Shown: positions 1,452 to 40,734 of the stretch, piece by piece
Numbering within the stretch: position 1 is the first letter of the stretch
How the letters are laid out: every line of letters starts with the position of its first letter
Origin: a virus
Reading direction: 5' to 3' (one strand)
DNA length: 40,734 nucleotides
Virus record (IMG/VR): IMGVR_UViG_3300030098_003183
Location: 1 to 40,734 of that record
Program-made: the position numbers and the translations under genes
The notes under the pieces: generated by a model
What the model saw: the letters and a program-made list of their open reading frames with translations, nothing else
What the model was told of the DNA's origin: nothing
Database searches by the model: none

Positions 1452-3307
1452 TATAATATACCTAATGGATCTTGATTATTGTTTTGTTGGTTTTGATTAT
1501 TTTTTTGATCTCCCTTTAACTCTCCCTCTAATTCAGCCTTCCAAGCCTCTTGTTTTGCTGCAGCTTGTTTTGCTATTTGGTCATAAAGTATTCTATTACT
1601 TGATGCCTTGTCTGGATCAGTTGAACTTCTAACATCTTTGATTCTGTTTTCATGAAAACCAGCATCTATTATAGCTGGAACCAGAAGTCCATCATCAGTA
1701 TCTGTAAAATCTATTCCAAGATTTCCTAACTTTCCTGATTCGTTTCTAGTAAAAACAATATCACCATAAAGAGCAACCTTATATTGTATATTTTTTTTCT
1801 CTTCAAGTGTTAGGTTAGTTAAGTCTTTCTGAGATATAGCCCTACCCCTTCCAGTATCTGGATCAACGTAAAATGGAGCAATACCAATAGTTCCAGTACG
1901 AAACTCTCTTGGCTTCTCATAAGCGTCAAGAGCAGTAGTGCTATTAACTGTTTGAAAATTATTATCACCACTTATAATAGTTGTGTTGTTGGGATTAATT
2001 GTGTGATTAAATGATATGTAATTCTGACCAGAACCACCAGTAGCCAAACCCTTCCCTTGAAAAGGATAATTTACTGGTTCTGAATCCTCTCTTTTTGGAA
2101 CCTGTATAACATTTCCCTCAATGTCATATTCAACAGTATTTTTATATACCACACCAGGAATATTTAAATTATAAAGCTCCATTTGATCTTGAGTATCTTG
2201 TTTTTTCTGGGAAGTCTCAAGTGTGCCAATACCAAGCTCATAAGCCTTATTAATAATATCTATTTTTGTTACTGGACTAAGATCCCCTTTAGCCTGTTTG
2301 TCTGCTTTTACTAATTTTGACAAATAAGAGGAGTGACCCATAGTTGTACCTTCTCCTGATTCATCATCCCATTCTCCACCTCCTCCAAATATGTAAGCCT
2401 CTAAAGCTTGCTTAGACATATCCTCTAGATATTCTCCTGTAAGTTTGTTAGTTTTAAGAAGTTTTGCATAATCAACATTTGTGTCTTGAAAATTACTATT
2501 GTTAGCATTTTTAATAGCATTATTAAAACCAAGATCTGTTAACCAATCTCCAAAGTTTTTAAAAGAAATATCAAAATCTGTATCTTGACCTGTATTCATA
2601 TCTTCCATAACAAATACTGGATTACCATTTTCATCCTTTCTAGCTTTGGAGACATCATCAGTTTCTTCGTTGTTTTCGTCATAGTAAACATGCTTAGGGG
2701 TTACTCCATCCTCTTTAAAGATAGCTTCTCCACTCTCATCTGTTGCAATTTTTTTTGTTTGCTTTCTATTTCTAGTTTCAACCATCAATTTACCATCAGG
2801 ACCAAAAGTGAAATTATAATTTTCACCATTCATCCCTTGCTCCCAAACATTTTTCATGTCCATTAAAGTTTGTGAGTTCTCTGCGTTCCAATAATTATCT
2901 CTATCTGTAGACATCAAATTAGCTAAATTATCATATCTACTTTTTAAGTCGTTACCATATTGATTGAATATCTGTGCTGCTGCCTGCATATTATACAATG
3001 TTTTGTGGGCTTGTTTACAATTAGGTCCACAATCTTCTGAGTAAGGATCCATTCTAAGTAAATCAGAATTAGCCATAGCAAAGTTATAAGCTTGCTCATT
3101 CAAATCTTGCTGTACAGCAAACATGTTTTCATTCTTAGTTCCAAACTCAGCTAACTCAAAGTTATATGGTTTTGGTTTACGTGCCTCTTTAGCCTGTTCA
3201 GACTTCATCTCAAGAGCTTTTTTCTTGAGCATTATGTCAGACCAACCCTGAGCTTCAGCTACAAGATCTCTCCTTCCTACTATTTCTGATACATTAGCTA
3301 TTGACAT
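1451..3307 (-). CDS. Probable internal virion (cargo/ejection) protein, 618 aa
   Basis: I do not recognise a named domain. The protein is hydrophilic, with a helical N-terminal part (residues about 1-160) and a more beta-like middle rich in Asn, Asp and Gly. The C-terminal tail is charged and Gln/Asn-rich (about 575-618). There is no signal peptide or membrane segment. It sits between the S74-like protein and the M15 peptidase protein, downstream of the giant muzzle gene. Crass-like phages keep cargo or ejected proteins in that position, so this role is inferred from synteny only. Translation is probably coupled to the next gene through the TAATG overlap at 1449-1453. The upstream gene ends 6 bases before its start. 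Confidence 0.6.
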   Translation of the reverse strand: MSIANVSEIVGRRDLVAEAQGWSDIMLKKKALEMKSEQAKEARKPKPYNFELAEFGTKNENMFAVQQDLNEQAYNFAMANSDLLRMDPYSEDCGPNCKQAHKTLYNMQAAAQIFNQYGNDLKSRYDNLANLMSTDRDNYWNAENSQTLMDMKNVWEQGMNGENYNFTFGPDGKLMVETRNRKQTKKIATDESGEAIFKEDGVTPKHVYYDENNEETDDVSKARKDENGNPVFVMEDMNTGQDTDFDISFKNFGDWLTDLGFNNAIKNANNSNFQDTNVDYAKLLKTNKLTGEYLEDMSKQALEAYIFGGGGEWDDESGEGTTMGHSSYLSKLVKADKQAKGDLSPVTKIDIINKAYELGIGTLETSQKKQDTQDQMELYNLNIPGVVYKNTVEYDIEGNVIQVPKREDSEPVNYPFQGKGLATGGSGQNYISFNHTINPNNTTIISGDNNFQTVNSTTALDAYEKPREFRTGTIGIAPFYVDPDTGRGRAISQKDLTNLTLEEKKNIQYKVALYGDIVFTRNESGKLGNLGIDFTDTDDGLLVPAIIDAGFHENRIKDVRSSTDPDKASSNRILYDQIAKQAAAKQEAWKAELEGELKGDQKNNQNQQNNNQDPLGIL

Positions 3308-3313
3308 ATGTTA

Positions 3314-4573
3314 TTATTTAAATAGAGAACTTCTCCCTAGGCTTCTAAATTTGAATTTTTGTTTCCCTGATGGCACTCTAGGTTTATGGACAGCACCATG
3401 TTTAGCCATAGTCTTTCCAAACTCTGCTTTTGATTCATCGTTATCCTCTGCTTCCTTGTCCCACTTAGTTAAAAGTTTATCCATTAATTTAACTAAAGCT
3501 TTACCATCCTTTTCTTCAATCATCTTTCTCATTTGCTTAACATTCTTTGGTGGAACTATAGCTTCACCACCTGTCATTTCCCCTATCTTTTCTGGCTTAC
3601 CCTCTTCTCCATTTTTTTGAACAAGGTCTATTGGGTTCTTTTCATGAGAGAATTTTCCTGGTGTAACCTCAGCTTCACCAGCTTCCATCATGTCTTTTGG
3701 TGTACCACCTTTTTTATATTTTCTTTTCATTTTATCTTTAAGTTTTCCACCACTAATCTTTCCAAACTTAACGTCTAACTTTCCATAATTAACACCTAAA
3801 GTGTTCTTGCCTATTTTTTTAACAGCCCCCTCATGCTTTGTTCCCACAAGGTCTTGTGCTATAACACCCTTGTATCTACCAGGACCCTTTGGAGCATCTT
3901 TTTTATCTTTGTATTCAAACTCACTTACAGGAACTCCATCTTTTGTTTTCCCAACTTTCTTAATGTTCTTTTTTTCTTTTTTATCTGACAAAGCACTTGC
4001 TGCCATACCAATACCTGCATCAATAGCACCATATTGTTGTTGTTGATAAGAAGCTAAATTTGATTGAGCTGCCTGAACATCTTCTCTAGCATAGTCAGCC
4101 ATCTGTGCCTGTCTAGCTAAGTCTGATTGCTCTCTAGCTTCTTGAGTTTGTCTAAGTCTACCTCTCTCAGCAACACCAGCCTCTAAACCTTTTCTTTGAG
4201 CAGCAGCTTGTTCAGAAGCTAAAGCAGCCTCTTGAGCTTGACCTGCTCTAGCAGCAGCAAAAGGATCCACCCTTGAACCACCTCTAGTAGCAGCAGCCAT
4301 TGCACCTGCTCTACTTCTCTCTGCAGCTTCTTGCCTTCTTTGTATTTCTGTACCACCAAGACCTTCTTTCATTTTAGCGATCTCTGGAGACATTGTTAAC
4401 TTTTGTCTATTTTGTCTTAATTCTTCTTCTTTAGCTAACTGTGCTGCTCTATCAGCTTCAGCTTTAGCTATATCCTCTTTTGACTTTTTTGCACCTTTTA
4501 TACCAGAAATTAGACCACCAATAAAATACTTAGCAGCATGTAATCCTTTTAATTTTTTCTTCTTTTTGGCCAT
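3314..4573 (-). CDS. Ala/Gln-rich ejection-like protein with internal S74-like chaperone domain, 419 aa
   Basis: Four parts are visible. Residues 1-35 are Lys-rich with a short hydrophobic stretch (KYFIGGLISG). Residues 35-195 form an Ala/Gln/Arg-rich helix like those of podovirus injected proteins. Residues about 196-272 resemble the S74 intramolecular chaperone of endosialidases: S196-D-K-K-E-K-K-N-I, then FEYK, YKGVIAQDL and VNYGKLDVKFG. Residues 285-419 begin with KYKKGG and continue with KNPIDLVQ and MTGGEAIVPP. S74 domains normally sit at the C-terminus of trimeric spikes and cleave themselves before the serine; an internal copy on a helical protein is unusual. A TATATTTG box at 4581-4588 lies only 7 bases before the ATG, so this gene may start a transcript with little or no leader. 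The S74 resemblance is fairly clear; the ejection role is inferred. Confidence 0.65.
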   Translation of the reverse strand: MAKKKKKLKGLHAAKYFIGGLISGIKGAKKSKEDIAKAEADRAAQLAKEEELRQNRQKLTMSPEIAKMKEGLGGTEIQRRQEAAERSRAGAMAAATRGGSRVDPFAAARAGQAQEAALASEQAAAQRKGLEAGVAERGRLRQTQEAREQSDLARQAQMADYAREDVQAAQSNLASYQQQQYGAIDAGIGMAASALSDKKEKKNIKKVGKTKDGVPVSEFEYKDKKDAPKGPGRYKGVIAQDLVGTKHEGAVKKIGKNTLGVNYGKLDVKFGKISGGKLKDKMKRKYKKGGTPKDMMEAGEAEVTPGKFSHEKNPIDLVQKNGEEGKPEKIGEMTGGEAIVPPKNVKQMRKMIEEKDGKALVKLMDKLLTKWDKEAEDNDESKAEFGKTMAKHGAVHKPRVPSGKQKFKFRSLGRSSLFK

Positions 4574-4580
4574 GATTTTA

Positions 4581-4614
4581 CAAATATAATAATTATTATG
4601 TTATTTATTACTAA
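4581..4614 (-). promoter_or_regulatory. Candidate promoter for the 419-aa gene
   Basis: On the minus strand a TATATTTG box (4581-4588) matches the Bacteroidetes -7 consensus TAnnTTTG. Twenty bases upstream is TTAGTA (4609-4614), the same hexamer found 19 bases upstream of the box before the scaffold gene. There is no TTG or TTTG -33 element. The box ends 7 bases before the ATG, which would place the transcription start at or next to the start codon. Confidence 0.45.
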
Positions 4615-7600
4615 GTTCGCTGTTAATTACATTTGCATTTGCAGCGTAAATATGAATTTTATCTTTTGTTCTTTTTGTTAATGTTGTATCCATATAGTGT
4701 CCCTTTAGCCTATCACCTTCAATTGTAGCATTTTTCTTTATATATCCAAATACAGTCATGGTACTTGGAGTGACACTTAAAGTGAATTGGTTAGCATTAT
4801 CTATAGATATTATAGTACCAAGAGATGTTTCTACTCCATTATTTGAATAATATACAGTATCTCCAACAACAGCTCCACAAGTCTGTATTACATTGCTCCC
4901 CACAGGTAAAATTGTAACTTGTGGACCTAAAGATATTAGTTGTAAATTTCCTAAACCTATATATTCTCCACCAGAACTATTAGTTGTTCCATATGGTATG
5001 TGAGATCCTAAAATCTGTTCTCTGTCTACCCAAACGCCTGCAGTGACTTTACTGGCATCATCATTATTATAAGACAGTCTGTGAGGTATAGATGTAGAAT
5101 TTATATTTGTTTCAAAATCTGTTTTAAAAGCTGTGTTTTCACCTGTTATAACAAAAACCTCACTAAGAGAATCTCCTGAAGACGTGCTACTAGCAGTTAT
5201 GAATGCGTTAACCTCTGCAACACTTGTAACAATAGTGTCTGCATCAGTTATAGCAGTAATAACCCCTAAAGTTCTTAATGTATCATTGTCGTAATACCAT
5301 AAAGAATCTCCAATCTCTATGTCATTTTCATTAAAATTAACATTAGAACCTTCTATATTTGCACTGTCTGTGGTAGCTACAACAGTAGGTGCAGCATTAT
5401 TTGCACTTGATGTTATAAGTGGTATTACATATGGCCTACCTGGTCCCTCTAAAGCTATGTTATTAAATGTTTTAACAGTAGACACATCAGAGTTAAATGG
5501 AAAAGAAACCTTTACTTCATCAGGATATGATCTACCATGAAACATACAGTAGTTATCTGAATCAGAGTCATGCTTGTATAACTCTCCATTAGCAAAACTT
5601 ATAAAAACTCTATTTAAGGAAGCATAATGTTCAGGGTAGAAAGTGTAAAAACTAGACCACCTATTAGATTTCTCATTAAAAGCCACTGTTTCAGCTTGAG
5701 TGGTAACAACTTTAGCTAATAATCCATTTACTATAAAGTCTTGCTGGTCTGAGGTTAGAGTGTTCCAAACTTGTGGTATAGAAATAAAAGAGTTCCATAT
5801 GTCAGTTACTGACTGCCAAGCTTGGCTATTACCATCAAAAAAAGGGGTAAAAAAGTTATTTGTAGAACTAGCAGCAGAGCTGTATACTGCTGGAAATGTT
5901 ACAATATACTCCCCATGTCTTGGGTCGTAACCACCATATATAAATAACCCACCATCTAAAGCTAGATCATAATTAGATTCTATTATTTCTTGGTACAAAT
6001 CCATCTTGTCTCTAAAATAATCAGTCATCTTATAGTCAGATATTACTGTTATTCCATCGCCACCCAACCTTAGAACAGCACCTTTTTTTATATCAATAAA
6101 ATATATTGACTTAGAATGTACAGCAACAGCTTCAGGATTAGTACACACACCATAATCTCCAGAGAATGGAGTAGCTTCTTCAGGCAAGACATTATTAGAT
6201 AAAGATATACCTTGATCTCCAGATGGAGAGGTTATTATACTTTTATTTATCATTACCTGAGATATTTTTTTCTCCTGCATTAAAACAAGATTAGTATCTC
6301 TAGATACAAGTTTTTGTATAGAACCTAAAGACATGTCGTAATCTTGATATGGTCTTTGGCTAAAATTAAATGAATGAAGACCATTATATTGAGTGTCTGG
6401 CTGATAAACATCAGAATAAGTTATTGTAGCTTTTCTTCTTTGCTCTTTAGCATATCCACTATATATATGTGGTCTGGCTATGTTGTTGTGATTAGTTTGA
6501 AGGAAATCATTTAAAAAATAACTCTCTACCCAAACCTTAGGTAATACAACAACTCCACCACTACCAACATATTTAACTTCTCTTGGTTTGTACCAAATAT
6601 CACCTCTTCTAAAAACTCCTGCTGCTGGTATTGTTAGTGATGTATCTTCTCCTAAGTATGTTGCAAATTCTTCAGGCTCCTGGTTCAATGTTTGACCAAG
6701 GTGCAATCTTCCATCAGTTAAAGCACCTTGAACAGAAAATCTTTCTCCAAACTCATAATAAACACTTTGCTCTTCAGACGTGTTTTTCTTTGGTCTATAA
6801 ATTTCAACAGTGACTTTATGCCATCCACTTATATATCCATTTGTATTTGCATTATCAGTGTTATCTGCGTCAGCAACACCATATCCTGGTATGCCAGGAT
6901 CATCTATTATTACAAACTTTCCTGGTTTAGTTGATTGAGGATCCTCCCCATCACCACCAACAGGAGATTCAGTAACAACCTGAGTTTCTTCCATATCACC
7001 ACCTCCTAACTCAAACCTATCAGGGAAGTTAGCTACATCACTGACTTTTAAGTCATAATGTTTATCAAACACAGTTCCATTTCCATCAGCTATAAGCCTT
7101 AACCTGTCTCCCTCTGCAAAACTCCACTCACCTACAAGAGACCTGTTTCTTTGACTATAACTCCAATCTCTACCATCCATAGTGTCTAGAGATATATATA
7201 TTTTAGTATCTACCTGACCTTCAGCTATAGAGACTCCTGCCTTAGATGCTTTATTTATCCACGCTGTAGAAACTCTGAATTGCATGAATTTACCAATAGA
7301 AGTATTTCTAGCATACACCCATTGATAGTGAGTGGCGTATAGAGGTGGTCTACTGAATATTTTCCAATGTATATCTGCTGGACCAAGTTTTTGACTATTT
7401 GTTAATGATTGATTTGTTAAACCACTTGGGTTATTTGTAGATACATTATTTGTAAAAGAAGAAAAATCTGCACCTTGTTGAAATTTTCTTTCAGTGGGAA
7501 ACCCTACATACACAGAGGAGTTTCTGTCATAAAGAGTATCTCTTAAGTCTTCATTGTTTAGCATAACACTAGAACTTCTCCCCTTATAGTCATAATAAAC

Positions 7601-39761: not shown

Positions 39762-39793
39762 TTGACACGTATTGAATTTGTTTTGTATGTTTG
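39762..39793 (+). promoter_or_regulatory. Strong early promoter
   Basis: TTGACA (39762-39767), 18 bases, then TATGTTTG (39786-39793) is a close match to the Bacteroidetes sigma consensus (TTG, about 19 bases, TAnnTTTG), and the -33 also matches the general bacterial TTGACA. The transcript would begin near 39800 and run into the early genes, with the first ATG at 39835. Confidence 0.75.
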
Positions 39794-39834: not shown

Positions 39835-40050
39835 ATGATAAAAGAAATAATTGTATCAGTTTTAATAGAAGGAGAAATGGGTACACATACTGCAAAATAT
39901 AAAGATATAACAATAGGGAATGATATTTTAAAGCACGATAAATGTGATGGATATAATGAATTATGGTACATATCTGCACAAGATTATCTAGCAACTCTAG
40001 GGCATACTAATGTTGAAACCTTCAAAGTAATTAAAGAAATAACTGAATAA
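39835..40050 (+). CDS. Unknown small early protein, 71 aa
   Basis: A beta-rich N-terminus (MIKEIIVSVLIEGEMG) is followed by HTAKYKDITIGNDI and a short helix (SAQDYLATLGH). It is soluble and mildly acidic. No family is recognised. It is the first gene behind the early promoter and the next gene starts 13 bases after its stop. Phage early proteins of this size often act against host functions, but nothing in the sequence shows that. Confidence 0.6.
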   Translation: MIKEIIVSVLIEGEMGTHTAKYKDITIGNDILKHDKCDGYNELWYISAQDYLATLGHTNVETFKVIKEITE

Positions 40051-40063
40051 AATTTAAAACATT

Positions 40064-40351
40064 ATGAGCAATAACTTAAAAGATATTTATAACAGATTAG
40101 TATTTAAACAAAAGGTATTAAAACTAATAGAATTGATGGAGCATAATATGACAGATATGTGGGTAGATAATTTAGAGTACACTGGCGAGTGTATATTATT
40201 AGAGGACTATAACTCTAAAGATATGAGGTTACCAGAAGATGAGATGTCACATGACAAAGACTCAGAAAGCAAATGCCAAGATAATTATCAGTTTACTGGT
40301 AGAGAGTTATATAGCTTAATACAAGAGTTAAAAAGTGAACTAAATGAGTAA
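40064..40351 (+). CDS. Unknown small early protein, 95 aa
   Basis: A helical, acidic protein (MSNNLKDIYNRLVFKQKVLK, then GRELYSLIQELKSELNE) with two cysteines. No family is recognised. Its last two codons and stop (40343-40351) are inside the 5' strand of hammerhead stem I, so ribosomes finishing this gene would melt that stem; this links translation to ribozyme folding. Confidence 0.6.
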   Translation: MSNNLKDIYNRLVFKQKVLKLIELMEHNMTDMWVDNLEYTGECILLEDYNSKDMRLPEDEMSHDKDSESKCQDNYQFTGRELYSLIQELKSELNE

Positions 40352-40475
40352 TACTGATGAGTCCTGATAGGACGAAACAAGAGGAGAAGATTCAATAGCA
40401 AAATCTCAATAATGCGCCCAAGGGAGAAATTCAATATAGCATAAAATCTCAATTGCATCTCCTCTGTCTATTACT
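40347..40475 (+). ncRNA. Type I hammerhead ribozyme
   Basis: All conserved parts are present in order. Stem I: AGTAATA (40347-40353) with TATTACT (40469-40475), seven perfect pairs. Core CTGATGA (40354-40360). Stem II: GTCC/GGAC (40361-40364 with 40370-40373), loop TGATA. Core GAA (40374-40376). Stem III: ACA-A-GAGGAGA (40377-40387) with TCTCCTC-TGT (40458-40467), ten pairs with one bulged A at 40380, including the required A-U at the base. The cleavage triplet GTC ends at 40468. Stem I is open, so the topology is type I, with a 70-base insert in place of a short loop III. Cleavage after 40468 would leave the ardC-like mRNA with a 27-base leader. The match is to the established hammerhead consensus; activity is not shown. 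Confidence 0.9.
40390..40453 (+). repeat. Imperfect direct repeat in the hammerhead loop III
   Basis: Units at 40390-40410 and 40429-40453 both start ATTCAATA, contain GCA and end AAATCTCAAT; the second has four extra bases in the middle. Each is preceded by a GAGAA-type stretch that can pair weakly with its TCTC, and so can compete with stem III. Confidence 0.6.
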
Positions 40476-40495: not shown

Positions 40496-40734
40496 ATGAA
40501 AAAAGACATTTATCAAATCATTACAGACCAAGTAATCAAAGGACTTGAAGAAGGGGGACATGAATGGTTTCAATCATGGGCAGGTAACACAGATACTATG
40601 ACAATAAGCCATACAACAGGCAAGATTTACAAGGGTATTAATCAGATGTTATTGAGTATGTCAATGTACTTAAATAACTACTCAAGCAGAGAATTTATCA
40701 CATTTAATCAAGCTAAAAATCTAGGTGGCAAAGT
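40496..40734 (+). CDS. ArdC-like antirestriction protein (5' part only; cut by window)
   Basis: The 79 codons visible read MKKDIYQIITDQVIKGLEEG, then H-E-W-F-Q-S-W, T-G-K-I-Y-K-G-I-N, then S-R-E-F-I-T-F-N-Q-A-K-N-L-G-G-K-V. This matches the N-terminal domain of ArdC-type proteins (DUF1738; ssDNA-binding N domain, usually followed by a metallopeptidase domain that lies outside this window). ArdC is known from plasmids as protecting incoming DNA against restriction. Its early position, directly behind the early promoter and ribozyme, suits protection of the entering genome. The C-terminal domain cannot be checked here. Confidence 0.75.
   Translation, partial: MKKDIYQIITDQVIKGLEEGGHEWFQSWAGNTDTMTISHTTGKIYKGINQMLLSMSMYLNNYSSREFITFNQAKNLGGK

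Follow-up and report, generated by a model that had tools for sequence, protein, structure and literature searches.

A type I hammerhead upstream of ardC in an Elemovirus-like podovirus, and related phage loci in which one ribozyme may cut many sites

Introduction

Hammerhead ribozymes have been described beside viral early genes and beside anti-restriction genes. Perreault et al., 2011 (PMC3088659) described hammerheads upstream of ardA and of an early gene of haloviruses; clustered prophage hammerheads surround ardA in Agrobacterium and Legionella, and the hammerheads flanking ardA cleave in vivo when cloned. The same paper places a mapped mRNA 5' end of HF1/HF2 at most 3 nt from the hammerhead cut. 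Self-cleavage is the mode of action described for most natural hammerheads (PMC6412130). For natural ribozymes that act in trans, RNase P RNA is usually cited (PMC5839562).

Here we analyze a stretch of 40,734 nucleotides (hereafter the window) from the IMG/VR record IMGVR_UViG_3300030098_003183, for which the original prediction proposed a type I hammerhead in the early mRNA of a crass-like phage, immediately before an ardC-like gene, as an arrangement not known to be described. The novelty may hold for one part of this proposal. Hammerheads before early genes and ardA are known from PMC3088659; a description of the pairing with ardC was not found in open-licence papers, nor was ardC seen in the portion of PMC3088659 considered here.

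Results and discussion

The phage and its early genes

The window terminase is 48% identical to that of MW202828, 38% identical to those of Flavobacterium elemo phages and ~23% identical to those of Crassvirales, and the portal protein is 36% identical to that of MW202828 and 31% to those of the elemo phages. After these phages, the terminase relatives are Maribacter and Cellulophaga podoviruses, and Tenacibaculum podoviruses also appear among the terminase and portal matches. A crAss-like phage is thus ruled out by terminase and portal, as Elemovirus- and Cellulophaga-type phages are much closer and Elemovirus is not placed in Crassvirales. The matches leave the 'crass-like' label unsupported and support that of an Elemovirus-like podovirus, probably of Bacteroidota. 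The virus record comprises 41281 bases and ends inside ardC, placing the early region beyond ardC outside the record. The genes and the promoter-like site around the element, all on the plus strand, are as follows.

39762..39793, plus strand: promoter-like site TTGAC ... TATGTTTG, upstream of ORF71
39835..40050, plus strand: ORF71, first small gene of the early unit
40064..40351, plus strand: ORF95, second small gene, with no Pfam family
40496..40732, plus strand: N-terminal part of the ardC-like gene, which runs on to the contig end at 41281 (PF08401, PF18818, phrog_7245)

The promoter-like site appears to resemble the Bacteroidota type, TAnnTTTG. The hammerhead does lie between a small gene and an ardC-like gene, as had been proposed: PF08401 matches within the window (3.8e-18) and the zincin-like PF18818 beyond it (3.8e-25), both above cut-off and found on two pieces with a masked stretch between them. 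The stop codon of ORF95 (40349-40351) falls within the 5' arm of stem I, and a search for relatives through this 95-aa ORF returned none.

The nearest relative found with ardC, G007 (IMGVR_UViG_3300043908_001585), encodes an ArdC that is 80% identical over the first 79 residues. There, ardC follows straight after a promoter-like region, without ORF71, ORF95 or a hammerhead, and the two sequences become homologous again within the stem I 3' arm, from window position 40470 onward. Compared with G007, the window thus carries ~670 nt more (ORF71, ORF95 and the hammerhead) between ardC and the promoter region. A type I hammerhead of a different sequence does occur in G007, preceding a different small gene at a later point of this operon. 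Since no hammerhead is present at ardC in G007/L215, L216 and L217, and L218 starts inside ardC, positional conservation cannot be used as an argument. Nor are hammerheads general in the window's clade, as 48 terminase-related records yielded three real ones (L203, L204 and L206). Two of these, L203 and L204, carry near-identical type I hammerheads with stem I AGGTTAA at the ends of different small genes, a resemblance that suggests movement of the ribozyme between genes.

The hammerhead and its predicted action

All the parts named in the original prediction are present, each where it had been placed, and together they make up a complete type I hammerhead at 40347-40475 as judged from its sequence, with cleavage expected after 40468.

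40347-40353, plus strand: stem I 5' arm, AGTAATA
40354-40360, plus strand: core box CTGATGA
40361-40373, plus strand: stem II, GTCC-TGATA-GGAC, four pairs and a 5-nt loop
40374-40376, plus strand: core box GAA
40377-40387, plus strand: stem III 5' arm, with A40380 bulged
40388-40457, plus strand: stem III loop of 70 nt, containing an imperfect direct repeat
40458-40467, plus strand: stem III 3' arm, followed by C17 at 40468; predicted cleavage 40468/40469
40469-40475, plus strand: stem I 3' arm, TATTACT, where the ardC leader begins

The helices comprise 7 pairs in stem I, 4 in stem II and 10 Watson-Crick pairs in stem III, stem I forms the open end, and the cleavage site is GUC. The core is that of a type I hammerhead, with CTGATGA, GAAA at 40374-40377 and TC at 40467-40468 supplying C3 U4 G5 A6 N7 G8 A9, G12 A13 A14 A15.1 and U16.1 H17. 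It is the single hammerhead of this kind in a window-wide scan. Loop II, TGATA, is found again within the AGTAATA family; no distal stem I element or clear stem I contact for this loop was seen in the window.

We consider it likely that the element is a cis-acting type I hammerhead that serves as an RNA processing site. A single early transcript would start upstream of ORF71 and span ORF71, ORF95, the hammerhead and ardC. The ribozyme could form once both arms of stem I have been made, with 20 nt still to go to the ardC start codon. Its cut at 40468/40469 would leave a two-gene RNA upstream, which ends in the structure of stems II and III and carries a 2',3'-cyclic phosphate, and an ardC RNA whose 5'-OH lies 27 nt from the start codon; these two products had been foreseen in the original prediction, which is supported in this respect. 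Such a cut would restore a short ardC leader, near that of G007, and may benefit the phage by giving ardC a separate stability or translation.

Several points speak against this reading: Rfam gives no match, the hammerhead is not kept at ardC in G007, L216 and L217, loop II shows no clear stem I contact, 4 of 18 consensus hammerheads were inactive in PMC3088659, and TCTC repeats in the long stem III loop could misfold the element. The loop holds an imperfect direct repeat at 40388-40453 (GATTCAATAGCAAAATCTCAAT / AATTCAATATAGCATAAAATCTCAAT), and its TCTC might capture the stem III 5' arm. A fold constrained to the hammerhead pairs reaches -23.8 kcal/mol, compared with -24.3 for the unconstrained minimum, in which the core is partly unpaired. 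Perhaps, then, the hammerhead is a switch in which GGAGA of the stem III 5' arm pairs with TCTC of the loop instead of the true 3' arm; a ligand, a protein or the pace of transcription would then decide on cleavage, and the output of ardC would be controlled. Two copies of TCTC are available for such an exchange, and 0.5 kcal/mol separates the two folds. However, the helix with the true 3' arm is longer than that with either decoy, and no relative keeps the loop, the long stem III inserts of other family members being unrelated. We regard the switch as unlikely and continue to favor a processing site.

Hammerheads near start codons and upstream of ardC

IMG/VR was scanned with CTGATGAGTCC-N3-10-GGACGAAA, and the hammerhead loci were taken among the matches listed. 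Hammerheads are common in phage contigs: among these matches, most fetched loci carry full type I or III hammerheads, often several per genome. An ATG-initiated ORF on the same strand begins 8-70 nt downstream of 97 of the 131 type I hammerheads among the matches listed (74%), compared with 33% for random positions, and the median distance to the ORF start is 26 nt, close to the 27 nt that separate the predicted cut from the ardC start codon in the window. Six phage contigs (L116, L113, L101, L090, L247 and L291) carry 4 to ~10 complete type I hammerheads between genes, and the copies of one genome tend to a common stem I sequence.

A profile search for ArdC located ardC in six independent loci, all of them originally chosen because they carry a hammerhead. 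In all six, ardC lies on the same strand and at most ~760 nt downstream of a hammerhead or hammerhead site; the joint probability of these placements, ~3e-8 under random placement within the locus, overstates the link because early genes cluster, but its direction is still clear. The predicted hammerhead is within ~65 nt of the ardC frame in L042 and L054, and an orphan cleavage site is found directly 5' of ardC in L092 and L219. The window element itself indicates that hammerheads beside anti-restriction genes are not restricted to ardA or to prophages. Predicted hammerheads recur just upstream of ardC across unrelated phages, and the recurrence makes the purpose of phage hammerheads testable on one gene.

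Detection of the element and the role of chance

One of the checks offered along with the original prediction, an Rfam search, did not bear it out: at the gathering score the window hammerhead has no match, and a relaxed search gives a partial RF00008 match of 18.3 bits. By contrast, 16 other type I hammerheads of phages were combined into a covariance model, which scores 32.1 bits at 40347 (E = 9.4e-7). The match is correct for the core side alone, the 3' half being placed on the wrong bases because the 70-nt stem III loop does not fit. The ill-fitting loop is probably the cause of the failure with Rfam too, whose gathering score is a detection threshold rather than a defining feature of a hammerhead. 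Since the sequences of the covariance model were chosen by descriptor and the enzyme finder demands stem II pairing, counting pairs in either set gives no independent support. An unbiased figure comes from the AGTAATA family, where 70 of the 72 pattern matches have at least 3 stem II pairs that the pattern did not demand. Stem II of the related hammerheads varies with compensatory changes.

It is also conceivable that the element is a chance or decayed motif without function, given that Rfam returns no match, that the position is not conserved and that 4 of 18 consensus hammerheads were inactive in PMC3088659. Yet a core with a stem I of at least 7 pairs and an equal total score arises at a rate of 0.033 per window in order-1 Markov versions, a rate computed before 7 further stem III pairs are counted. 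Together with the intact core, the typical distance to the start codon and the existence of a whole family of relatives in which stem II changes are compensated, this low rate makes a functionless motif very improbable, and a working processing site is the better account.

Arrays of half-sites in related phages

In the locus L219 (IMGVR_UViG_3300025652_000027, 2045-3970), the enzyme strand is followed by its own site and then by three orphan half-sites, each a hairpin followed by GTGTC|TATTACTAACT.

2511: first orphan half-site of L219
2970: second orphan half-site, directly before ardC
3958: third orphan half-site

The enzyme arms ACAC and AGTAATA fit all L219 sites, and the opposite strand has no GTGTC|TATTACTAACT site anywhere along the contig of 32 kb. 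In L092 (IMGVR_UViG_3300007640_000068, minus strand 2883-4890), one enzyme accompanies five sites of the form ACGTC|TTATATTAATCT, one of them before ardC, again with none on the other strand of its 40.8 kb. The arms of L092 are unrelated to those of L219, and its array is an independent instance of the design.

By sequence, the window hammerhead is a one-site form of the L219 family. Its enzyme strand equals that of L219 at 32 of 33 positions, and with one of the three L219 orphan sites lying directly before ardC it is tempting to ask if the window hammerhead is itself a multi-site enzyme that also cuts TGTC|TATTACT sites before later early genes, in trans or over a long distance. Against this, a single GTCTATTACT is found in the window rather than more than one half-site, a relaxed search that admits G-U pairs gives three matches, which is background level, and stem III is a long cis helix. 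Multi-site action by the window element is unlikely, and processing in cis at its own site remains our preferred reading.

A third family is formed by the AGCTATA-enzyme group, with 20 contigs (19 from IMG/VR and one in a Bdellovibrionota MAG) that hold 124 sites on one strand and 0 on the other.

L298, L073, L297, L307/L300, L308-L324 and L325: members of the group
Record ~51000-55360, minus strand: L298, in IMGVR_UViG_3300046170_000355

Exactly one enzyme strand is present in 16 of the 20 contigs, on the site strand and always upstream of the sites; in the other four, two of them short fragments and two of 25.7 and 43.8 kb that are maybe incomplete, none was found. The enzyme strand has an invariant CTCC-AAAGCTATA-CTGANGA and an invariant ACAC (...GAAACAC), with a variable and paired stem II, a pairing that the finder itself demands. 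There are 12 sites in L073 and, besides its own site, ten in L298. The half-sites precede successive genes in the layout hairpin-GTGTC|TATAGC-AATAGGAG-GCTAT..ATG, with the consensus (A/T)GTGTC|T[AG]T[AG]GC-AATA-GGAG-GC[CT]A[CT] and a start codon mostly 23-24 nt past the cut. As CTGANGA occurs within 160 nt upstream of 17 of the 124 sites, or about one per enzyme, the sites look like substrates and not like remnants.

The pairing between enzyme and sites points in the same direction. Opposite an enzyme U, A and G are the only letters found in the site arm, with pairing kept as G-U, a restriction that is partly by construction since the search pattern allowed only A/G at those positions. The downstream half of the leader hairpin changes along with the site arm (TATGGC/GCCAT in 45 cases, TGTAGC/GCTAC in 35, TATAGC/GCTAT in 19 and TGTAGC/GCTAT in 9), the last two letters of the downstream half having been left free in the analysis. 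In L298, the enzyme arm ACACT fits the orphan sites (AGTGT) better than its own site (TTGTC). Moreover, the enzyme CTCC can pair with GGAG of the leader, giving a distal stem I helix behind an internal loop, and RNAcofold returns this three-way junction for the L298 and L307 sites; its energies alone prove little, because shuffled sites overlap the observed ones in some families. A strong hairpin lies 5' of 93% of sites (median -16.3 kcal/mol, compared with -2.7 at random positions) and could shield the preceding mRNA at its 3' end. The cut leader could refold, TATAGC pairing with GCTAT and GGAG in the loop, and thereby drive product release. The enzyme would act in trans or in long-range cis, which sequence cannot separate; if the first site is cut in cis, later sites would have to be cut in trans. 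A search of the phage collection for the leader gave chance-level matches only, and neither hammerheads nor arrays were found in MW202828 or in the four sequenced phages closest to the L298 group, each of these four searched over its first 50 kb.

Taken together, the L219, L092 and AGCTATA families make it fairly probable that some phages process an early operon through a single hammerhead that cuts many half-sites, one per gene, in trans or over a long distance. This estimate applies to the related loci and not to the window hammerhead, and the case is built entirely from metagenomic data. A description of a natural multi-site hammerhead was not found in open-licence papers. If the proposal is true, these operons would be run in a new manner, by a small phage ribozyme cutting as many as a dozen sites and leaving each gene with a ready 5' hairpin that holds its ribosome binding site. 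The arrays matter more than the window element, which is ordinary in kind, in a usual position and beside ardC, and whose interest lies in the recurrent anti-restriction link and in its multi-site relatives.

Comparison with known systems

The window hammerhead shares its core, stem order and cleavage site with the Rfam families RF00163 and RF00008, from which it differs by its 70-nt stem III loop and a score below the gathering score. Like the ardA prophage hammerheads, it belongs to a polycistronic unit of phage type and immediately precedes an anti-restriction gene; unlike them, it accompanies ardC in an Elemovirus-like podovirus that is apparently lytic, and it is a single type I copy with a 70-nt loop. 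As with the HF1/HF2 hammerhead (HHphage) of PMC3088659, the virus is lytic and the ribozyme lies at a short distance from the start codon of the early gene that follows, whereas HHphage has core insertions near C3, needs high salt and sits at 13 nt, compared with a canonical core and 27 nt in the window. A discontinuous hammerhead, with halves split by a long insert, was reportedly found in mammalian 3' UTRs by Martick and colleagues in 2008. The separation of enzyme and substrate halves by a long insert is a trait that it shares with the window hammerhead, but the mammalian ribozyme has one site and belongs to eukaryotes, whereas in the phage arrays one enzyme would serve several sites.
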